Assembly: GCF_014931715.1 (NCBI RefSeq)
Contig: NZ_CP063164.1
Location: forward strand, 682,001 to 746,000
Direction of reading: 5' to 3'
DNA from: Sulfurovum indicum
GTDB lineage: Bacteria > Campylobacterota > Campylobacteria > Campylobacterales > Sulfurovaceae
DNA: 64,000 nt
The position numbers and the translations under genes are program-made. Below are positions 49,371 to 64,000 of this stretch, piece by piece. How positions within the stretch are numbered: position 1 is the first letter of the stretch; each line of letters starts with the position of its first letter. The notes beneath the pieces are model-generated. The model made no database searches and was not told where the DNA came from. It saw only the letters and a program-made list of their open reading frames with translations.

Positions 49371-49710
49371 CGCTACGCTACGCTTTGCTTAGTGATAGTG
49401 ATAGTGATAGTTTTTAGTGATAGTGATAGTGATAGGGGGGGGAGAGCGCTTCGCGCTTAGGGAATGGCGCTTAGGGAATGGAGAATGGATAATTGAGAAT
49501 GGTGAATGGTCCTCGTTCCTGCGGGATTGTCGCTATGCTCGGATGAGAATTGAGAATGGTGAATGGTGAATGGTGAATTGATAATGGTGAATTGAGAATG
49601 CTGAATTCTATGAGCGCGAAGCGCTTCCTATCACTATCACTCCCCACTCCCACTGCGCAAAGCGCCCACTATCACTATCACTCCCCACTATCACTGAGCG
49701 CAAAGCGCTC
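49371..49710. repeat. Short-word repeat array with inverted arms
   Basis: A 340-bp non-coding array. The left arm is built of AGTGAT hexamers (49389-49440), ends in a G8 tract (49435-49442) and continues with AGCGCTTCGCGCTT. The centre (about 49460-49610) is made of GAATGGT/GAATTGA heptamers broken by a GC-richer module (49509-49547) that recurs inverted inside gmd. The right arm repeats the left in reverse (GAGCGCGAAGCGCTT, ATCACT hexamers, GAGCGCAAAGCGCTC). The whole is a large imperfect palindrome with no gene inside. Confidence 0.85.
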
Positions 49711-49860: not shown

Positions 49861-52401
49861 ATGGCTGATTTGTTTGAAGATGGTCAGAATACCGAAGAGG
49901 TATTGATAGAGGACAGTATCAAGACTAGCTACCTTGACTACTCCATGAGTGTCATCATCGGTAGGGCGCTTCCCGATGCACGTGACGGGCTCAAACCGGT
50001 TCACAGACGTATCCTGTACGCAATGAACGATCTGAACCTTTCGCATCGTGCACCCTACAAGAAATCCGCGCGTATCGTCGGGGATGTGATCGGTAAGTAT
50101 CACCCACACGGTGACAATGCCGTGTATGATGCTTTGGTGCGTATGGCGCAGGATTTCTCCATGCAGGCACCGCTGATAGACGGACAGGGGAACTTCGGTT
50201 CTATCGACGGTGACAATGCCGCAGCAATGCGTTATACCGAAGCGCGTATGACTAGAATAGCAGAAGAGCTCCTGAGCGATATCGAGAAAGATACGGTCGA
50301 CTATGTACCCAACTACGATGACTCGATGGTAGAACCCGATGTGCTACCCTCCCGTGTACCCAATCTTCTGCTGAACGGTTCAAGCGGTATCGCCGTCGGT
50401 ATGGCGACAAATATTCCGCCTCATCGTCTGGATGAACTGGTCGAGGCACTGGTAATGCGCATCGACAACCCTGAAGTAACGGTCGAAGATCTCATGAAGG
50501 TCGTACATGGACCGGACTTCCCTACCGGCGGTATCATCTTCGGCCGCAAGGGGATCACCGATGCCTATACTACCGGACGCGGGCGTATCAAAGTACGTGC
50601 CAAAACACACATCGAACAGAAGGGGAACAAAGAGGTCATCATCATTGATGAACTTCCCTTCCAGGTGAACAAAGCAAGACTTATTGAGAATATCGCACAG
50701 CTGGTACGTGACAAGCACATCGAGGGGATCAGTGAGATCCGTGATGAATCGGACCGTGAAGGTATCAGGGTCGTACTCGAGCTCAAGCGTGATGCGATGA
50801 GCGAGATCGTACTCAACAATCTCTTTAAGTCCACGCAGATGCAGGTGACCTTCGGTATCATCATGCTTGCGATTAACAACAAAGAGCCCAAAGTCTTCAA
50901 CCTGATGGAGCTTTTCGATCTTTTCCTCAATCATAGAAAAACGGTGGTCATCAGACGTACCATCTTCGACCTTGAGAAAGCCAGGGCCAGAGCGCATATT
51001 CTGGAAGGTCTCAAGATCGCGGTCGACAATATCGATGAGGTCATCAGGATCATCCGTGCTTCAGAAGATGACGAAGATGCCAGAAACAACCTCATGGAGC
51101 GTTTCAAACTCTCCGAGATCCAGGCAAAAGCGATCCTGGAGATGCGTCTGAGACGTCTGACAGGTCTTGAGATCGAAAAGATCGAAAATGAACTTGCCCA
51201 GCTGTTGAAGACGATCGCCGAGCTCGAAAGTATTCTCAAGTCCGAATCAAAGATCAATGCCATTATCCGCGAAGAGCTGGTCGAGATCGGTGAGAAGTAC
51301 ACAACGCCAAGACGTACTGAAATTGTTGATGACTATGACGATATCGACATTGAAGACCTTATTCCAAATGAGCCGATGGTCGTCACCATTACCCATAGAG
51401 GCTATATCAAGCGTGTACCTGTGAAGATGTACGAAAAGCAGCATAGAGGCGGCAAGGGGAAAACAGCTGTCACGACATACGATGACGATTTCATAGAGAG
51501 CTTCTTTACATCCAATACACACGATACACTGATGTTCGTCACTGACAGAGGACAGCTCTACTGGCTCAAAGTCTACCGCATTCCGGAAGGGTCCCGTACG
51601 GCCAAGGGGAAAGCAGTGGTCAACCTGATCAATCTCCAGCCCAATGAGAAGATCATGGCGATTATTCCGACAACGGACTTCTCTGATGAGAAGAGTCTGG
51701 TCTTCTTCACCAAAAACGGTATCGTCAAGCGTACGAACCTCTCTGAGTACTCCAATATCAGAAGCAGCGGTGTCAGGGCGATCAACCTCGATGAGGATGA
51801 TGCGATCGTCGGAACGGAGATAGTCACACCTCAGACCAAGTGGCTCTTTGTGGCGACGAAAAAGGGTCTGTGTATTCGTTTCAAAGTGGAGGATGCCAGA
51901 GAGATCGGGCGTGTTTCACGCGGTGTGACAGCCATCAAGTTCAAGATCGACGGTGACTATGTCTGCGGTGCAACGACCATTGAAAGTGAAGATGAAGAGC
52001 TGCTCATGCTCTCCGAAAAAGGTCTGGGAAAACGTACCACTGCCAGTGAATACCGTGAGCAGAACCGTGCGGGCAAAGGGGTCATTTCCATGAAACTGAC
52101 ATCGAAGACCGGTGATGTGGTCGGTGTCGTAAAGGTCGAAGAGGACAAAGACCTGATGTGTCTGACCTCTGTAGGCAAAATGATCCGTGTGGATATGGAG
52201 CAGATACGAAAAGCCGGACGTAACACCTCAGGTGTCAAGATAGTCTCGGTTGACAAAAAGGATACTGTAGTAAGTATGGCAAAATGCCAGAAAGAAGAGA
52301 AGCCTGAAGCAACAAGCGAAGCGCAGAGCGAAGGTGGAGAGGAAGCTGCCAAGAGCAGTAGTGAAAACAACAATAATGACAACAGTTTAGGATTGCTATA
52401 A
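49861..52401 (+). CDS. gyrA: DNA gyrase subunit A
   Basis: The breakage-reunion subunit of gyrase (846 aa). The catalytic Tyr is in [11 protein letters not shown], the quinolone region reads [19 protein letters not shown], and the C-terminal beta-pinwheel carries a GyrA-box-like RGGKGK. Asn at the position of E. coli Ser83 is natural in Helicobacter and is not by itself a sign of a resistance mutation. The last 50 residues are acidic and Asn/Ser-rich. AAAAAGGAAAAGA precedes the ATG, and the stop overlaps the asd start. Confidence 0.97.
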
Positions 52402-54063: not shown

Positions 54064-55113
54064 ATGAGTAAAATATTTGTAGATGCCTGTTTGGGCAAAG
54101 AGACCCCCTATACACCGGTATGGATGATGAGACAGGCAGGACGCTATCTGCCCGAGTATATGGCAGTAAGAGCAGATGCAGGTGATTTCCTCTCTCTCTG
54201 TCACGATCCAGAGAAAGCAGCAGAGGTGACCATACAGCCGCTCGATATTGTCGGAGTGGATGCTGCGATCCTCTTCAGCGACATCCTTGTCATTCCCGAT
54301 GAGATGGGAATGGATCTGAGCTTTGTCAAAGGTGAAGGACCGAAGTTCTCCGATCCTATTGCCACACAGGAAGATCTGGACAGGCTCATCGGCGGAGAAG
54401 AAGCGGCAGATAGGCTGACCTATGTCTATGACACTATCAAACTGCTTAGAAAGCAGCTTGATGAAAGAGGTGATGAAAAAGCCCTTATCGGATTTACCGG
54501 CGCACCGTGGACTCTGGCGACCTATATGATCGAAGGCCAGGGGACAAAGACCTACAACATCTGTAAAAAGATGATGTACTCCAACCCGGAACTCCTGCAC
54601 AACATCCTTGAAAAAGTGACCGAAGTGGTCAAGTACTATATGGAGAAGCAGATCCTCTCCGGTGTCGATGTCGTACAGATCTTCGACAGCTGGGCAGCAG
54701 CGATCGAACCGGGCAAATACGATGAGTTCAGCTGGAAGTACATGGTGGAGATTGCAGAGTATCTCAAAGAGAAGTACCCGCATATCCCGGTCATCATGTT
54801 CCCCAAAGGCATTGCAGCGTTCATCGAACGCGGCGGAATCTACGGTAACTTCGATGTGCTCGGCATCGACTGGGGGACACCGATGGCAATGGCAAAAGAG
54901 AAGCTCGGAGAGAAGTATGTTCTCCAGGGCAACATGGAGCCATGCCGCCTCTATTCCAAAGAAGCTACCACGGAGTGCGTAGAAGCCATTCAGAATATCA
55001 TGGGAGGCAAAAGACACATCTTCAACCTCGGACACGGCATACTCCCCGATGTACCGGTAGAGAATGCGATACATTTCGTTAAGGAATGCCAGAGAGTAAG
55101 TGCAAAGAGCTAA
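54064..55113 (+). CDS. hemE: Uroporphyrinogen decarboxylase
   Basis: Converts uroporphyrinogen III to coproporphyrinogen III in haem synthesis (349 aa). Signature motifs are [37 protein letters not shown] and [23 protein letters not shown] precedes the ATG. The end of the gene is a palindrome, AAGAGCTAAGCTCTT, that contains the stop codon, and a hexamer array starts 10 bp later. Confidence 0.95.
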
Positions 55114-55123
55114 GCTCTTGCAC

Positions 55124-55230
55124 AGTGATAGAGACGCTACGCTTAGTGATAGTGATAGTGATAGTGATAGAGACGCTACGCTTAGTGATAGTTTTTAGTG
55201 ATAGAAGGAAGTGATAGTGGTGGTGGGGTT
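55124..55230. repeat. AGTGAT hexamer array, left arm of four-helix-bundle unit 1
   Basis: Tandem AGTGAT words broken by AGACGCTACGCTT modules, reaching to 5 bp before the start of the four-helix-bundle gene. The matching right arm, in ATCACT orientation, follows that gene. The GTGGTGGTGGGG at the end of the array probably serves as the ribosome-binding stretch of the gene. Confidence 0.85.
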
Positions 55231-55234
55231 ATAG

Positions 55235-55591
55235 ATGGACTATAAAGAGTTGGTTGTTTGGCAGCGATCTATTGAACTTGTGACTGATATTTATCAACTG
55301 GTAAAATGTTTGCCAAAAGAAGAGCTTTTTGCGCTATCTGATCAAATCAAAAGGTGTGCTGTTTCTATTCCCTCTAATATTGCAGAAGGAAGTGGAAGGA
55401 ATACAACTAAAGAATTTATTCAGTTTCTTTATATATCATTAGGCTCAGCTTCAGAACTTGAGACACAATTGATCATTGGTAAAAACGTTGGCTTTTTTAA
55501 TGATTTAGATGTGTATTTCAAAGAGATCAATGAAATAAGAAGAATGTTAAACGGACTTATCAATTCATTAAAAAATAAAGAAAACCGATGA
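55235..55591 (+). CDS. Four-helix-bundle protein (23S IVS / S23 family), copy 1
   Basis: A 118-aa protein of the family first met in the intervening sequences of Leptospira and Coxiella 23S rRNA genes and related to the Avd accessory protein of diversity-generating retroelements. Marks are ELVVWQRSIELVTDIYQLV, the core CAVSIPSNIAEGSGRNTTKEF and YISLGSASELETQL. It forms small ring-shaped oligomers in known relatives and probably binds nucleic acid. It lies between inverted hexamer arrays. Its codons are more AT-rich than those of its neighbours, which suggests foreign origin. Confidence 0.9.
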   Translation: MDYKELVVWQRSIELVTDIYQLVKCLPKEELFALSDQIKRCAVSIPSNIAEGSGRNTTKEFIQFLYISLGSASELETQLIIGKNVGFFNDLDVYFKEINEIRRMLNGLINSLKNKENR

Positions 55592-55596
55592 ATACC

Positions 55597-55671
55597 TCTA
55601 TCAATAATTATCACCACAACTATCACTATCACCATCACTCCCACCATCCACTATCACTATCACTATCACTC
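55597..55671. repeat. ATCACT hexamer array, right arm of unit 1
   Basis: ATCACT words, with variants (ATCACC, ATCCACT), in the orientation opposite to the array before the four-helix-bundle gene. The arms could pair and place the gene in the loop of a long imperfect hairpin. The array runs straight into the remnant of another four-helix-bundle gene. Confidence 0.85.
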
Positions 55672-55740
55672 TTCCGGATAAAAGAACTCAATGAGATTCT
55701 ACGAATGTTAAATACATTAAAGAGAAGTTATGCCAAATAA
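55672..55740 (+). pseudogene. C-terminal remnant of a four-helix-bundle gene
   Basis: The frame ending at TAA 55740 reads IKELNEILRMLNTLKRSYAK, which aligns with the C-terminal helix of copy 1 (FKEINEIRRMLNGLINSLK). The N-terminal part is gone and has been replaced by the hexamer array. The stop codon lies within the sequence ATGCCAAATAA, whose ATG is the start of the next gene. Confidence 0.75.
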
Positions 55741-56686
55741 TTCTGAACGCCTAACGCTTAACGCTGAACCCTCACCTCCGGTGATCTTCGGACCAATCTC
55801 CTCCCGCCGTTTCGGCAAATCACTCGGGATCGACCTGAGTCCTTCCAAAAAGCAGTGCAACTTTGACTGTCTCTACTGTGAGCTTGATGCGGCAAAGACG
55901 ATGGCAGGGCAGGATGAAGTCCTGCCTGTTTCGCAGATCGTTAATGCCGTCAAAGAGGGCTTGAGGGAGCATCAGGATATCGACGTACTGACCATCACAG
56001 CAAACGGTGAGCCGACACTCTATCCGCATCTGAATGAACTTATTGACGAGATCAACAAGATCAAGGGTACTACCAAAACCCTCATTCTCTCCAATGCTTC
56101 GACCATCGATGACCCTGACGTGCAGGAAGCGCTTTTGAAGCTTGACGAGGTGAAGCTCTCGCTTGACTGTGCAACACAGAAGTGTCTGAAAAAACTTGAC
56201 CGTTCCCACAGCGGTATCGATGTGGAGAAGATCAAAGCGGGGATGCTGCTGTTCAAAGAGCGTTACAAAGGGCCTCTTGTTATCGAGATCCTGATGGTCA
56301 AGGGGCTTAACGATTCCAAAGAGGAGACAGCGCAGCTTAATGACTATCTGCTCAAACTCCAGCCTGCACGCATCGACATCGGTACCATTGACCGTCCGCC
56401 TGCTTTTGATGTCAAGCCGCTAAGCTATGGGGAGCTTCTTGCCGTCAGCCGTCAGTTCGATGCCTCGCTTCCAGTCTACATCGCTTCACGCAAAAAGGCA
56501 GAGGCGGCCCCTTCAGACTATGGCAGCGATGAGATACTCCAGACCCTCTCCAAGCGTCCATTGACGCAGGAAGATGTAGAAGTTCTGCTGGATGATGCAA
56601 GCCGAGAAAGGTTTGAAACATTGAAAAATGAAGGGAAAATCATACCGGTTGATTCAAATGGCGTGATTTTTTACAAAAAAGCCTGA
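55730..56686 (+). CDS. Radical SAM protein (COG0731-like) with repeat-derived N-terminus
   Basis: A 318-aa radical SAM enzyme with the cluster motif CNFDCLYCE (C-x3-C-x2-C) and FGPISSRRFGKSLGIDLSP, as in the COG0731 group related to wyosine-type tRNA enzymes. The substrate is unknown. The family core starts at about residue 17. The first 16 residues (MPNNSERLTLNAEPSP) are coded by four heptamers, GAACGCC, TAACGCT, TAACGCT, GAACCCT (55745-55772), and the ATG overlaps the stop of the preceding gene remnant. Confidence 0.82.
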   Translation: MPNNSERLTLNAEPSPPVIFGPISSRRFGKSLGIDLSPSKKQCNFDCLYCELDAAKTMAGQDEVLPVSQIVNAVKEGLREHQDIDVLTITANGEPTLYPHLNELIDEINKIKGTTKTLILSNASTIDDPDVQEALLKLDEVKLSLDCATQKCLKKLDRSHSGIDVEKIKAGMLLFKERYKGPLVIEILMVKGLNDSKEETAQLNDYLLKLQPARIDIGTIDRPPAFDVKPLSYGELLAVSRQFDASLPVYIASRKKAEAAPSDYGSDEILQTLSKRPLTQEDVEVLLDDASRERFETLKNEGKIIPVDSNGVIFYKKA

Positions 56687-56939: not shown

Positions 56940-57307
56940 AAAAAAACACTAAAAACTATCACTAAGCGAAACGTCTCTATCACTAAAAACTATCACTAAA
57001 AACTATCACTATCACTATCACTATCACTAAAAACCCCCACTATCACTATCACTGCACCACACACATCCTGAACGCTGAACGCTTAACCCTGCGCAAAGCG
57101 CCTCTATCACTATCACTATCACTATCACTAAGCGAAGCGTCTCTATCACTATCACTGCGCCACACACATCCTGAACGCTGAACGCTTAACGCTGAACTCT
57201 GCGCAAAGCGCCTCTATCACTATCACTAAGCGAAGCGTCTCTATCACTATCACTATCAACTATCACTATCACTATCACTAACCCCCCCTCTATCACTAAA
57301 CACTAAA
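56940..57307. repeat. ATCACT/GAACGCT repeat array with a 103-bp duplication
   Basis: About 370 bp without a gene. It is composed of ATCACT hexamers, GAACGCT/TAACGCT heptamers, and the palindromic words GCGCAAAGCGC and AAGCGAAGCGT. A unit of about 103 bp, starting ACTGCACCACACACATCC at 57051, is repeated from 57154. Almost all words are in one orientation. A C7 tract lies at 57282-57288. A -10-like TATAAT (57312-57317) for galE follows. Confidence 0.85.
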
Positions 57308-59516: not shown

Positions 59517-59563
59517 AATGGGAAGATGAGTGAATGTGTGGATGTGTGGATGTATGAATAAGG
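59517..59563. repeat. Octamer array, left arm of four-helix-bundle unit 2
   Basis: Six octamers in a row, AATGGGAA, GATGAGTG, AATGTGTG, GATGTGTG, GATGTATG, AATAAGG(A), ending in the AAGGAGGAG Shine-Dalgarno of the next gene. The right arm with the same period, inverted, begins inside the following dehydrogenase gene. Confidence 0.8.
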
Positions 59564-59575
59564 AGGAGATATTGA

Positions 59576-59950
59576 ATGGTGACGCATAAAGATCTTGATG
59601 TTTGGAAACTTTCTATTGCCCTTGTGAAAGATATATATATGTTAACTGAGATGTTCCCACCGCAGGAACAGTATGGTTTGACAAATCAGTTAAGACGGGC
59701 TTCCGTTTCAGTTCCAAGTAATATAGCAGAGGGGTCAGCACGAAACAGTTTAAAAGAGTTTATCCAGTTCTGTTATATCTCTTTGGGTTCTCTTTCAGAA
59801 ATCGAAACACAAACGATTATTGCCTGTGAATTAGATTTTGTAAACAGAGAACATTCCGATAAAATACTAAAACAAATTGAAATAATAAGAAAAAAACTTT
59901 TGAACTTTATCAAACATCTCAAAATAAAAGGTACAAACAATGCCAGATAA
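59576..59950 (+). CDS. Four-helix-bundle protein (23S IVS / S23 family), copy 2
   Basis: A 124-aa paralogue of copy 1, with KDLDVWKLSIALVKDIYMLTEMFP, ASVSVPSNIAEGSARNSLKEFIQF and YISLGSLSEIETQTII. AAGGAGGAG stands about 10 bp before the ATG. The stop codon is inside ATGCCAGATAA, whose ATG opens the next gene, the same junction as at 55730. It is AT-richer than the sugar genes around it. It is flanked by octamer arrays in opposite orientation. Confidence 0.9.
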   Translation: MVTHKDLDVWKLSIALVKDIYMLTEMFPPQEQYGLTNQLRRASVSVPSNIAEGSARNSLKEFIQFCYISLGSLSEIETQTIIACELDFVNREHSDKILKQIEIIRKKLLNFIKHLKIKGTNNAR

Positions 59951-61298
59951 CCCATTGACACATTCTTCCATCCACTCATCTACCGATCACAAGATCGCTA
60001 TCATCGGCCTTGGCTATGTCGGTCTGCCGTTGGCGCATGCATTCAGTGAAAAGTATGAGGTTGTTGGTTTTGATATTAACGGGGAACGGATTGAAGAACT
60101 GAACAGAGGGTATGATCGTACGCTGGAGCTTGATGACACTCAGATGAAAGAAGCATTGGAAAATGGTATGAAGTTCACTACCGATCTGGATGAGATAGCA
60201 GACTGCAACATCTACATCGTGACGGTTCCCACTCCTATAGACAGTTCCAATCGTCCCGACCTTACACCGCTTATCAAAGCTTCCGAAAGTGTAGGAAAGG
60301 TGCTAAAAAAAGACGATATCGTCATCTATGAATCGACGGTCTATCCAGGCGTAACAGAAGAGGTTTGTGTTCCTGTACTCGAAAAGGTCTCCGGCCTCAA
60401 ATATATCAGTACCGAAACACTATCCACTATCCACTATCCACTATCTACTGAACTCAAAGGGTTCTACTGTGGATACAGTCCTGAACGTATCAACCCGGGT
60501 GACAAGGAGCATACGGTTACAAAGATCCTCAAAGTCACTGCTGGTTCTACGCCTGAGATCGCCAAGGTAGTGGATGATCTTTATGCAAGCATTATTACGG
60601 CAGGAACCCATCTTGCTTCCTCCATCAAGGTGGCAGAGGCGTCAAAGGTCATTGAAAACACCCAGAGAGATGTCAACATCGCCCTGATCAACGAACTGGC
60701 ACTCATTTTCGATACGATGGGCATCGATACCATGGAGGTCATAGAGGCGGCAGCGACCAAATGGAATTTCATCAAACTCACTCCCGGTCTGGTAGGCGGT
60801 CACTGCATCGGTGTGGATCCTTACTACCTGACACACAAAGCACAGGAGCTTGGCTACAAGCCAAACCTTATTTTGGGGGCGAGACAGATCAACAACGGCA
60901 TGAGCAAATATATTGCTGAGCGTACCATCAAAGAGATGATAAGTCATGACAAGAAGATCAAAAATGCCAATGTACTGGTCATGGGTCTCACCTTTAAAGA
61001 GGATTGTCCGGATATCAGAAACTCCAAAGTTTTTGACATTATCGATGAGTTGCACGACTATGGCTGCCGCATCGATGCTTACGATCCGTGGATCGAAGAG
61101 AAAGAGGTAGATCAGAAGAATTTCACGTTCATCACAGATCCGTTTAAAAGAGATAAAAAGTATGATGCAGTCATTGTCGCTGTAGGACATAAAGTGTTTA
61201 AAGAGCTCGATAGAAGCCAGTATGAGACTGTCAGTACAGGTGAACCGGTGCTCATAGACATCAAGGGGATCATTAAAGATCCTACGTGGAGATTGTAG
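59940..61298 (+). CDS. UDP-sugar (UDP-GlcNAc/ManNAc-type) 6-dehydrogenase
   Basis: An NAD-dependent nucleotide-sugar dehydrogenase (452 aa) of the TviB/WecC group. It has the Rossmann start KIAIIGLGYVGLPLA, GYSPERINPGDKEH, and the active Cys in GGHCIGVDPYYL. Two parts are repeat-derived. Residues 1-17 (MPDNPLTHSSIHSSTDH) come from octamers at 59958-59989. A loop after VSGLKY (about residues 158-176, STETLSTIHYPLSTELKG) is coded by four CACTATC heptamers (60418-60445). The exact sugar is not certain. Confidence 0.88.
   Translation: MPDNPLTHSSIHSSTDHKIAIIGLGYVGLPLAHAFSEKYEVVGFDINGERIEELNRGYDRTLELDDTQMKEALENGMKFTTDLDEIADCNIYIVTVPTPIDSSNRPDLTPLIKASESVGKVLKKDDIVIYESTVYPGVTEEVCVPVLEKVSGLKYISTETLSTIHYPLSTELKGFYCGYSPERINPGDKEHTVTKILKVTAGSTPEIAKVVDDLYASIITAGTHLASSIKVAEASKVIENTQRDVNIALINELALIFDTMGIDTMEVIEAAATKWNFIKLTPGLVGGHCIGVDPYYLTHKAQELGYKPNLILGARQINNGMSKYIAERTIKEMISHDKKIKNANVLVMGLTFKEDCPDIRNSKVFDIIDELHDYGCRIDAYDPWIEEKEVDQKNFTFITDPFKRDKKYDAVIVAVGHKVFKELDRSQYETVSTGEPVLIDIKGIIKDPTWRL
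59958..59989. repeat. Octamer array, right arm of unit 2, in frame
   Basis: ACACATTC, TTCCATCC, ACTCATCT and ACCGATCA: four octamers whose reverse complements match the words of the left arm (GATGAGTG, GGATG, AATGTGT). They code for the N-terminal extension of the dehydrogenase. Confidence 0.75.
60418..60450. repeat. CACTATC heptamer array inside the dehydrogenase gene
   Basis: Four exact CACTATC heptamers followed by TACTG. They encode STIHYPLST in a loop just before the conserved GYSPERINPGDKEH motif, where family members normally have only a few residues. Confidence 0.8.
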
Positions 61299-61301
61299 CA
61301 G

Positions 61302-62798
61302 ATGACCAATATCATTCTATGCGGAGGAAACGGTACACGTTTGTGGCCGCTCAGTCGTACGCTGATGCCGAAGCAGTTTGTTAAACTTTTTGAGGAAGAG
61401 TCTCTTTTCCAAAAGACTGTTATTCGTAACGAGAAAGTCTGCGACAGTCAATTCATCGTATCCAATGCTGAGCAGTATTTTTTAGCAGTAGACCAACTTG
61501 AAGAGCTTACTCATAACTCAACATCCAATACTCGGCATTCAACACAATATCTTTTGGAGCCCGTCGGGCGCAATACAGCTCCTGCCATCGCATTGGCCTG
61601 TTTGGCACTTGATCCTGAAGAGACACTCCTTGTCACTCCGTCAGATCATCTCATCAAAGATGAAAAAGCCTATCTTGAAGCTGTAGAAAAAGCAAAGTAT
61701 CTTGCAGAAAAGGACAACCTTGTAACATTCGGTATTACTCCGCAATATCCGGAAACAGGGTTTGGGTATATTGAGGCGATTGCTTCAGTGATAGTTGAGA
61801 GTGATAGTGATAGTGGGATGGATGTTATTCATTTTCATGAAAAACCGGATCAACAAACGGCACAGCAATATATTAATAAGAACCAAGAGGATCAATCACT
61901 ATCACAATCCACTATCACTAAATTCTTCTGGAACAGCGGAATGTTCTGCTTCAAAGCAGGTATCTTTTTGGAAGAGCTGGAAAAATACGCCCCGGAGATC
62001 TATACAGCATCATTAAAAGCATTCCAAAATGCTAAACAAGAGGCCGTAATACGTATTCATCATGAAGAGATGATGAATATTCCATCCGAGTCGATCGATT
62101 ATGCTGTCATGGAAAAAAGCGACAGGGTAAAGGTCGTTCCCGCAGACATTGACTGGAGCGATCTTGGAAGCTTCGATGCACTTTACGAAGAATTGCCGAA
62201 AGATGAAAATAGTAATTCGTCATTAGTGCTTAGTGATTCGAAAAAAGAACATAAGGCTAATGACCAATTACCAATTACCAATCATGCAACAGGTAATTTG
62301 ATCATTTCGGAGAAACAAGTTGCCGTTGTCGATGTAGATGACCTTATCATCATCGACACTGCAGATGCCTTGCTCATCTCAAAAAAAGGATCTTCCCAAA
62401 AGGTCAAGGAGGTTGTTAAAACGCTTAAAGAGAGAAACTCTGAACTGCCAAACATTCATGTGACTGCACACAGACCATGGGGTACCTATACCATACTCGA
62501 TGAATCAAATGGCTACAAGGTCAAACGTATCGTTGTTAAACCCGGGAAACGTCTCTCTTTGCAAAAACACTATCACCGTTCAGAACACTGGGTTGTTGTA
62601 AGTGGTACGGCCATAGTAACCCAGGGAACGGAAACGTATGCCGTCAGGGCCAACGAATCCACCTATATTCCCATCGGAGAGATACACCGCCTTGAGAATG
62701 TCGGGAAGATTCCGCTGGTAATGATAGAGGCACAGGTAGGTGAGTATGTGGGGGAAGATGACATCGTTCGGATGGAGGATGACTTTAAGAGAGCATAG
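61302..62798 (+). CDS. manC: Mannose-1-P guanylyltransferase / mannose-6-P isomerase
   Basis: A bifunctional enzyme that makes GDP-mannose, the substrate of Gmd (498 aa). The pyrophosphorylase part has LCGGNGTRLWPLSRTLMPKQF, EPVGRNTAPAIALA and YWNSGMF-type FFWNSGMF; the C-terminal cupin has YHRSEHWVVVSGTA. Compared with other ManC proteins, four loops carry extra residues coded by short-word repeats: 61516-61543, 61787-61817, 61895-61920 and 62211-62284. None touches a catalytic motif. It lies 3 bp after the dehydrogenase gene. Confidence 0.93.
   Translation: MTNIILCGGNGTRLWPLSRTLMPKQFVKLFEEESLFQKTVIRNEKVCDSQFIVSNAEQYFLAVDQLEELTHNSTSNTRHSTQYLLEPVGRNTAPAIALACLALDPEETLLVTPSDHLIKDEKAYLEAVEKAKYLAEKDNLVTFGITPQYPETGFGYIEAIASVIVESDSDSGMDVIHFHEKPDQQTAQQYINKNQEDQSLSQSTITKFFWNSGMFCFKAGIFLEELEKYAPEIYTASLKAFQNAKQEAVIRIHHEEMMNIPSESIDYAVMEKSDRVKVVPADIDWSDLGSFDALYEELPKDENSNSSLVLSDSKKEHKANDQLPITNHATGNLIISEKQVAVVDVDDLIIIDTADALLISKKGSSQKVKEVVKTLKERNSELPNIHVTAHRPWGTYTILDESNGYKVKRIVVKPGKRLSLQKHYHRSEHWVVVSGTAIVTQGTETYAVRANESTYIPIGEIHRLENVGKIPLVMIEAQVGEYVGEDDIVRMEDDFKRA
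61516..61543. repeat. Heptamer array inside manC (first insert)
   Basis: ACTCAAC, ATCCAAT, ACTCGGC and ATTCAAC: four related heptamers, 28 bp. They code for THNSTSNTRHSTQY just before the conserved LLEPVGRNTAPA motif. Confidence 0.65.
61787..61920. repeat. Inverted hexamer arms inside manC (second and third inserts)
   Basis: AGTGAT words at 61787-61817 (coding VIVESDSDSG) and ATCACT words at 61895-61920 (coding QSLSQSTITK) face each other about 77 bp apart. The arms are the same hexamer as in the array around 55-57 kb, in opposite orientation, so the mRNA can form a hairpin within the coding sequence. Confidence 0.78.
62211..62284. repeat. Inverted heptamer arms inside manC (fourth insert)
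   Basis: The left arm is AGTAATT, CGTCATT, AGTGCTT, AGTGATT. The right arm is TAATGACC, AATTACC, AATTACC, whose complement (GGTAATT, GGTCATTA) mirrors the left. They code for NSSLVLSDSKKEHKANDQLPITNH in a variable loop between the transferase and the downstream beta part. Confidence 0.68.
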
Positions 62799-62834
62799 TG
62801 TTAAGGGGTATGAGCTAAGGGCTGCGTGTTACGA
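62799..62834. repeat. Heptamer array, left arm of four-helix-bundle unit 3
   Basis: GTTAAGG, GGTATGA, GCTAAGG, GCTGCGT, GTTACGA: five heptamers between manC and the next gene. The word GTGTTACG recurs in inverted form (CGTAACAC) after that gene. Confidence 0.7.
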
Positions 62835-62848
62835 CAAAGGAATGAAAG

Positions 62849-63208
62849 ATGAAATGTGAGAAATTGGATGTTTGGAAGAAGAGTGCTAGATTTTCTTCTG
62901 ATGTCTATAAAGCTTTTAAGGAGTGTAAATATTTTGGCTTTAAAGACCAGATCACGCGTACCGGGCTTTCTATTCCAAATAATATTGCTAAAGGCATGAA
63001 GAAAGAGTCTCCAAAGGAACAGGTCAGGCTTCTCGATATAGCAAAAGGTTCAGCAGCAGAATTTGCAACACAAACGTATATCGATAGATCAGAAGGCAGA
63101 AAATGGATAGAAGAGTCAGAAACTATGCTCTCAATGCTATCTAGCCTTCAAAAAGTACGAAGAGAAAAAATCGTCACACGTAGTTCTTTGCACGTAACAC
63201 GTAATTAA
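62849..63208 (+). CDS. Four-helix-bundle protein (23S IVS / S23 family), copy 3
   Basis: A 119-aa, more diverged member ([59 protein letters not shown]). AAAGG precedes the ATG by 8 bp. Its last residues ([12 protein letters not shown]) are coded by the right-hand heptamer array, so the repeat has been taken into the C-terminus. It differs from copies 1 and 2 enough to be an independent acquisition. Confidence 0.87.
63170..63208. repeat. Heptamer array, right arm of unit 3, in frame
   Basis: GTCACAC, GTAGTTC, TTTGCAC, GTAACAC and GTAATTA: five heptamers that mirror the left arm at 62799-62834 (GTGTTAC against GTAACAC). They end at the stop region of the four-helix-bundle gene. Confidence 0.72.
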
Positions 63209-63230: not shown

Positions 63231-64000
63231 ATGAATAAAGAAACTCAAAATTCAACATCCAAAACCCATCCTAGCGAAGCGACAATCCCGCAGGAACGAG
63301 GACAAAACCCAAATGAACCAAAGGTGGCATTGATCACCGGAATTACTGGCCAGGACGGATCCTATCTGTCAGAGTTTCTACTTAAAAAAGGATACATTGT
63401 CCACGGTATCAAAAGAAGGGCATCACTCTTTAATACCGACCGTATCGACCATCTCTATGAAGATCCTCATGTTGAGAACCGCCATCTTATTTTGCACTAT
63501 GGAGATATGACCGACTCCATGAACCTGACGCGTATCATACAGGAGGTGCAGCCTGATGAGATCTACAACCTTGCCGCCATGAGCCATGTTGCCGTTTCAT
63601 TTGAGACACCGGAGTATGTCGCCAATGCCGACGGTACGGGAACCCTTCGTATTCTCGAAGCGGTCAGACTGTTGGGGCTTGAAGAAAAGACACGTATCTA
63701 CCAGGCTTCTACTTCCGAGCTTTACGGAAAGGTGCAGGAGGTACCACAAAGTGAGACTACACCCTTCTATCCGCGTTCCCCTTATGCTGTAGCCAAGATG
63801 TATGCCTACTGGATCACTGTGAATTACCGTGAAGCCTACAACATGTTCGCCTGTAACGGTATTTTATTCAATCATGAGTCTCCGGTACGGGGTGAGACCT
63901 TCGTGACCAGAAAGATCACCAGGGCAGCTTCAAAGATCGCTTTGGGACTCCAGGACAAACTCTATCTGGGCAACCTCGACGCCAAACGTGACTGGGGCCA
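63231..64000 (+). CDS. gmd: GDP-mannose 4,6-dehydratase, N-terminal part (cut by window end)
   Basis: Converts GDP-mannose to GDP-4-keto-6-deoxymannose, the route to GDP-fucose, rhamnose or perosamine. The family core begins at about residue 31 with [21 protein letters not shown]; the catalytic Thr-Ser/Glu and Tyr-x3-Lys are in STSELYGK and SPYAVAKMY. The first 30 residues are a repeat-derived extension: heptamers AAACTCA, AAATTCA, ACATCCA, AAACCCA, then a 26-bp module (63278-63303) found inverted at 49509-49534. The 3' end lies outside the window. Confidence 0.93.

Follow-up and report, generated by a model that had tools for sequence, protein, structure and literature searches.

To our knowledge, S23/IVP genes, which encode four-helix-bundle (FHB) proteins, have been recognized for decades, mainly from inserts in rRNA, with neither their function nor their route of movement known. 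Heptamer tandem repeats occur in cyanobacteria as STRRs. The IVS of Coxiella burnetii carries a terminal stem of 28 bp, shows heptamer repeats ahead of the S23p ORF, and is excised by RNase III (PMC4990558). In Beggiatoaceae, the heptamer TAACTGA is repeated ahead of start codons (PMC4679880). Among open-licence papers, we found none on FHB genes outside rRNA that have heptamer arms. Here, we analysed a stretch of 64,000 nucleotides from Sulfurovum indicum (the window; NZ_CP063164.1, positions 682,001 to 746,000) together with FHB loci from other genomes. The comparison makes it probable that FHB genes of the window are parts of IVS-type mobile units, in which the gene lies between inverted arms of 7-bp words, stands at a gene junction and donates start or stop codons to its neighbours.

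The genome has nine FHB genes, and the window holds three intact ones and the relic tail of one more. Copies 1 (118 aa, 55235-55591), 2 (124 aa, 59576-59950) and 3 (119 aa, 62849-63208) match the TIGR02436 and PF05635 (23S_rRNA_IVP) profiles, with PF05635 E-values in the window of 4.6e-38, 3.2e-37 and 2.5e-23, and thus code for S23p/23S_rRNA_IVP proteins. These genes, their arms, the relic and the downstream genes described with them are all on the + strand. Copy 2 has a left arm of GATGTGTG-type repeats (59525-59559) and a right arm (59951-59980; CATTCTTCCATCCACTCATC) that, judged from sequence and orthologues, codes for the N-terminus of a tviB-type nucleotide-sugar dehydrogenase. The copy-3 unit is bounded by a left arm at 62822-62834 (GCTGCGTGTTACG) and a right arm at 63175-63207 (CACACGTAG...CACGTAACACGTAATTA), into which the last codons of the gene extend. 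Copy 1 is atypical among units in that its arms mostly have a period of 6: the left arm, (AGTGAT)n, spans 55124-55221, the right arm, (CTATCA)n, spans 55612-55671, and both pair in the predicted fold with a z of -4.6. Directly after copy 3, at 63231-63330, the gmd gene has a low-complexity N-terminal extension of ~28 residues. The units are like the 23S rRNA IVS in protein family, terminal inverted repeats, heptamers before the ORF (as in Coxiella) and a length of ~430-440 bp. In contrast to that IVS, they stand between protein genes, have locus-specific arms and appear to supply start and stop codons to their neighbours. No rRNA match was found in the window, where the FHB copies stand between protein genes; as they do not lie inside 23S rRNA, we class the units as an IVS variant and not as IVS.

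Across loci, a unit consists of an FHB gene between inverted terminal arrays of tandem 7-bp words, with arms that match each other, a word that differs from locus to locus and a median length of 442 bp. For the 116 loci of the genus, the flank arrays showed a periodicity peak at lag 7 only, and the inverted-repeat score was 35.2 with a gene's own flanks, compared with 17.7 for swapped flanks, 15.5 for shuffled flanks and 16.0 in direct orientation. Scores of at least 24 were reached by 77% of 181 Campylobacterota loci (the 116 genus loci plus 65 mostly from other Campylobacterota genera), whereas random windows with that spacing did so in only 1% of cases (n=1325). The 65 loci outside the genus scored 33.3 with own flanks versus 16.4. 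Within the same insertion site, an arm scored 36.2 against its own partner and 27.4 against the partner from another genome, and 0 of 10,000 permutations were as high; same-site loci are kin and not independent, which the within-site permutation handles in part. As the own-partner fit exceeds that with the same-site partner of another genome, the words of both arms seem to change together. Short mobile units with terminal inverted repeats are reminiscent of MITEs and TIR transposons. However, the arm sequence is not common to sites here (16.9 between sites versus 35.4 within a locus), and the unit is without a transposase. Right arrays were stop-free in all three frames in 62/91 cases, and left arrays had stops in all three frames in 39/68. 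We rejected the idea that a period of 7 (1 mod 3) is selected to make left arrays stop translation, and right arrays let it pass, in every frame, because base composition explains most of this pattern (distinct words with a stop: 22 in right arrays, against 20.7 expected; 59 in left arrays, against 50.5).

Matched arms could also reflect selection on RNA: the arms might form a stem that is cut by RNase III to separate the FHB message, with start donation as a side effect where the stem is translated. Complementary termini able to form a stem are indeed present, as seen in the inverted-repeat scores, the pairing in the predicted fold and compensatory pairs at ispG (8/23), uvrB (5/10) and tilS (7/12), although the alignment of the arrays is uncertain. 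Here and below, genes outside the window (tilS, rimO, ispG, uvrB, murD and others) carry the names of what we take them to be from their sequence, with no family search. The Coxiella IVS, with its heptamers, 28-bp stem and RNase III excision (PMC4990558), provides a precedent. On the other hand, A.C-type mismatches in the arms outnumber G.U-type mismatches (171 versus 81 in the genus; 91 versus 64 outside it), so that selection for a sense-strand RNA stem, which should tolerate G.U, is not supported, and cutting would strip the donated start from the downstream message. We therefore regard RNase III processing as a possibility that falls short of an even chance; the arms may instead be matched at the DNA level.

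Movement of the unit together with its arms is seen in one pair of loci. Over ~500 bp that reach from the left array to where the right array ends, L007, a murD-linked unit of the window's genome, and the ispG-linked L216 have 81% identity; their flanks beyond the arrays are unrelated and not alignable. Comparison of the two shows a candidate unit that moves with its arms and occurs at unrelated junctions. The FHB tree is clustered by site and requires 39 site changes (minimum 22), an exact count that is soft because the protein is short. Neither recent identical copies nor a target-site duplication were established; the junction sequence was replaced by the unit, with possible short repeats at L045 (no statistics). 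The analysis identified no enzyme for movement, and FHB genes had 0 matches in 50,697 phage records. Our guess would be that FHB oligomers bind the arms and that host repair or replication enzymes copy the unit. A role of the FHB protein alongside a reverse transcriptase in a retroelement cycle, as for Avd, was suggested by the weak sequence relation of copy 1 to Avd models (NF033474, 1.8e-5, 25 bits versus a cut-off of 80; PF22296 bAvd, 3.3e-5, 24.8 bits versus a cut-off of 40). However, unlike for Avd of diversity-generating retroelements, these scores are below the curated cut-offs, and RVT_1 (PF00078) had no match at E<=1e-8 in the genome of the window (G000) and none in 57 of the 78 genus genomes, including the FHB-rich G047 and G063. 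We rejected this route, as the genome is without a reverse transcriptase match, and give it hardly any credence.

The junction between hemE and a radical SAM gene, where copy 1 lies, carries traces of more than one FHB gene. The first-pass annotation had read a frame at 55672-55740 as the tail of a decayed fourth copy that matches the last helix of copy 1. Scored against the FHB set, the frame indeed represents the end of an older FHB gene, with its final 20 codons and its stop (IKELNEILRMLNTLKRSYAK, followed by the stop), but it starts six bases later, at 55678, and ends at 55740. At the DNA level, the relic scored 30-32 against the FHB genes L132, L046 and L043, with a best score of 23 for shuffled relics (n=300) against the whole FHB set. 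Its score against copy 1 was 18, which lies within the shuffle null, and descent from the copy-1 tail was thus rejected. As it reaches 30-32 with L132, L046 and L043 and only the null-level 18 with copy 1, the relic is the tail of a different FHB lineage. Consistent with a decayed copy, relatives have an intact FHB gene at the identical hemE/radical-SAM position (L043, L046, L027/L132) or internally deleted FHB forms there (L012/L041, L011/L040, L015/L044). The nearest kin of copy 1, L045 and L057, stand at the same junction and retain the native radical SAM start. Downstream of the relic, the right 7-bp array of the older unit (55744-55769; TGAACGCCTAACGCTTAACGCTGAAC) now codes for the radical SAM N-terminal residues RLTLNAEP. 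Upstream of copy 1, a palindrome at 55100-55123 (GTGCAAAGAGC-TAA-GCTCTTGCAC) has the 3' end of hemE as its 5' arm and an inverted copy thereof as its 3' arm. Genome-specific palindromes of this kind are often present at FHB-bearing junctions (L012, L014, L045, L046) and were absent from the FHB-free junctions L042, L049, L055 and L059; they could have been left behind by the insertion mechanism. Taken with the overall reading, the site is probably a nest of two IVS-type mobile units. The older unit would have supplied the radical SAM start, with an ATG overlapping the FHB stop and an N-terminus from the right array. In the lineage of the window, the second unit (copy 1) would then have displaced most of the older one, and the part that survived would be the tail bearing the radical SAM start codon.

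The relic tail contains a word, ATGCCARATAA, that the first-pass annotation had noticed at two junctions. The window contains this word at two positions only, 55730 and 59940 (0.11 sites expected; two sites in 0 of 100 shuffles), so the shared junction is confirmed. The first position is the start of the radical SAM ORF (55730-56686), and the second that of the tviB-type ORF (59940-61298). The proposal that both genes take their start codon from the tail of an FHB gene finds support in orthologues of radical SAM, tviB and tilS alike. In the FHB-free L042, L049, L055 and L059, ATGTCNAAYATCATCTT directly follows the hemE stop and gives a protein that begins MSNIIFGP; the native start of FHB-free relatives is thus ATG-TCN-AAY-ATC immediately after hemE. 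In the group with the extended start, the radical SAM ATG is overlapped by the FHB tail, the proteins begin MPTDTSQRSTLNAQRSPKVIFGP or similar, and a 7-bp array, (CAACGCT)n, encodes the residues that come after MPxx. The gene of the window, with the FHB- and array-derived N-terminus MPNNSERLTLNAEPSPP, has its putatively donated ATG at 55730-55732, within the relic; a GTG at codon 19 is still possible as a start. In L012 and L040, an ATC codon stands at the native start, and no other ATG, GTG or TTG is usable. In L028/L050, an HD-domain-like gene lies between the FHB and radical SAM genes and has its ATG from the FHB tail, with the array-coded N-terminus retained on the radical SAM gene. According to the first-pass annotation, donation would be contradicted by orthologues that share the new start yet have no FHB neighbour. 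Such orthologues, lacking an intact FHB gene, do exist, and the near ones (L012/L041, L011/L040, L015/L044 and L276) retain parts of an FHB gene that was deleted. The distant L086 begins MPNN without an FHB gene and formally counts against donation. Its ATG sits in TTGATAAAAAAATATGCCCAATAA, a stretch that can be read as LIKKYAQ followed by a stop and so resembles an FHB tail; we take it to be a last FHB remnant, which is too short for proof.

At the second junction, the donated tviB ATG (59940-59942) lies in the stop region of copy 2, as indicated by orthologues. Without an FHB gene, TviB begins at a native start with MxHKIAVIGLGYVGL, and the gene of the window adds MPDNPLTHSSIHSST before DHKIAIIGLGYVGL. 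L126/L168 provide an independent case: there, ATGCAAAAAAATAA overlaps the stop of the FHB gene, and (TCAATTC)n comes next. For tilS, the N-terminus in FHB-free genomes is MLTLDxSHLKGKKNLLAFSAG, whereas in 16/16 FHB-bearing genus loci the gene starts in or at the FHB tail and its frame runs on across the array, as in MKPKLLTAHCSLLTEKKNLLAFSAG. For the majority of these tilS loci, the next possible start would delete the SAGxDSS motif. Together, radical SAM, tviB and tilS support start-codon donation, as judged from sequence comparison, in three gene families. The rimO/tilS unit also acts on its upstream neighbour, with the rimO tail and stop codon coded by the left array: RimO ends in LLATLIKAL without an FHB gene and in LLATLISEQVAVSK, LINEEVGSRK and similar with one. 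An array-coded N-terminus without an FHB gene was found in L150 for tviB and in L261 for tilS, suggesting that arrays may spread alone or outlive the FHB gene. Within the tviB gene of the window, a (CACTATC)n array at 60418-60449 codes for ~12 residues inserted between GLKY and FYCGYSPER. Of the other genomes compared, three carry an insert at this place, coded by different words, and 14 carry none.

Comparison of the loci shows that the units occupy gene junctions, mostly between co-directional genes (97/113 upstream and 110/113 downstream neighbours), and that at several sites the native stop codon, start codon or both have been replaced by unit sequence. In 53 loci, about half of 113, the ATG of the next gene overlaps the FHB stop or adjoins it, most often at -4 (19 loci), -11 (15) or -8 (8) relative to the end of the stop. 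SD-like motifs were found in only 24 of these 53 starts. That the donated ATG is where translation of the next gene begins is supported indirectly, with start sites inferred from open frames, absent alternative starts and orthologues. It probably occurs by stop-start coupling to FHB translation, given the clustering of the ATG at these distances and the few SD-like motifs. The first-pass annotation had further suggested that the unit inserts at or near start codons and donates a new one. Donation stands, but start codons as the target are too narrow: in 44/116 loci a start remains after the array, FHB genes also lie inside 23S rRNA and antisense to an operon, and stops of upstream genes are supplied as well. 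As a needed gene would lose its start if the whole unit were deleted, a unit would be hard to lose once the native start is gone, and decay would leave the tail.

ATGA-type overlaps are frequent in bacterial operons. Together with the co-directional neighbours, this would fit an ordinary operon in which the FHB gene is a host gene, the overlap of ATG and stop is normal coupling and the altered N-termini are lineage-specific extensions. Such an operon would not account for the empty junctions of relatives, where the native start comes immediately behind hemE, nor for the same unit with its arms at unrelated junctions and the matching inverted arrays. In addition, the N-terminal extensions coded by right arrays are missing from FHB-free orthologues in three families, with relic-bearing genomes, L086 and L150 as the exceptions. 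We thus consider an ordinary operon very improbable. Another reading takes the 7-bp arrays as the mobile or expanding agent, with FHB genes as passengers between two inverted arrays. Arrays without an FHB gene do occur in the window, in tviB, where words vary by genome, and as an inverted cluster at 49390-49708, and start codons are preceded by TAACTGA heptamers in Beggiatoaceae (PMC4679880). With these repeats and STRRs, the arms share tandem 7-bp words that are often near start codons. However, TAACTGA repeats have one fixed word in direct orientation with no FHB gene mentioned (PMC4679880), whereas here words vary and are inverted around an FHB gene. Inverted arrays are present in just 1% of random windows of the same loci, the arms of one FHB unit match specifically and move together with the gene, and FHB-free arrays can be decay products, all of which makes arrays as the agent rather unlikely and favours the FHB gene and its arms as one mobile unit.

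Armed FHB genes were found in Campylobacterota, cyanobacteria, Bacteroidota and Azospirillum. Arms scored 35.7 versus 16.6 in 22 loci on plasmids (cyanobacterial, Riemerella, Azospirillum) and contigs from a metagenomic viral collection. In L349/L350 (Campylobacterota) and L361 (Azospirillum), the FHB gene lies inside 23S rRNA, with arms alike. In L361, the frame at 901-1230 lies in a 23S rRNA gene of an Azospirillum lipoferum plasmid, and the PLSDB gene table lists no feature there. As 23S-borne FHB genes have the same arms, the junction units appear to be mRNA-side relatives of the 23S rRNA IVS. Whether FHB/S23 genes form a widespread class of mobile units, with the IVS as one special case, is in our judgement an evenly balanced question; such units would have matched, locus-specific arms, occupy junctions, replace the stop or start of their neighbours and hold needed genes hostage. 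In the loci compared here, FHB genes appear as a common mobile unit with a recognizable anatomy at protein-gene junctions in several phyla. Their persistence would have a simple reason, in that the next gene depends on the unit for its start codon. By altering N- and C-termini of the housekeeping proteins TilS, RimO, radical SAM and TviB, the units would matter for start-site annotation, and their arms and boundaries make movement and protein-DNA or protein-RNA binding directly testable. Among the cyanobacterial plasmids L351, L353, L359 and L360, the FHB gene is antisense between nrdB and nrdA in one, between cas6 and cas4 in two and between cas10 and cmr3 in one.

Further arrays are present elsewhere in the window. 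The cluster at 49390-49708, between a thioredoxin-like gene and a putative gyrA-like gene at 49861, consists of FHB-free inverted AGTGATAG and CTATCACT arrays around GAATGGTGAATTGA heptamers and is perhaps a decayed unit. Two identical tRNA-Asn genes in tandem are separated from galE by arrays (56977-57281) that show a higher-order repeat of ~103 bp. The mannose-1-phosphate guanylyltransferase gene contains in-frame arrays of 6-8 bp at 61787-61815, 61893-61918 and 62259-62282, two of which are inverted and ~80 bp apart.
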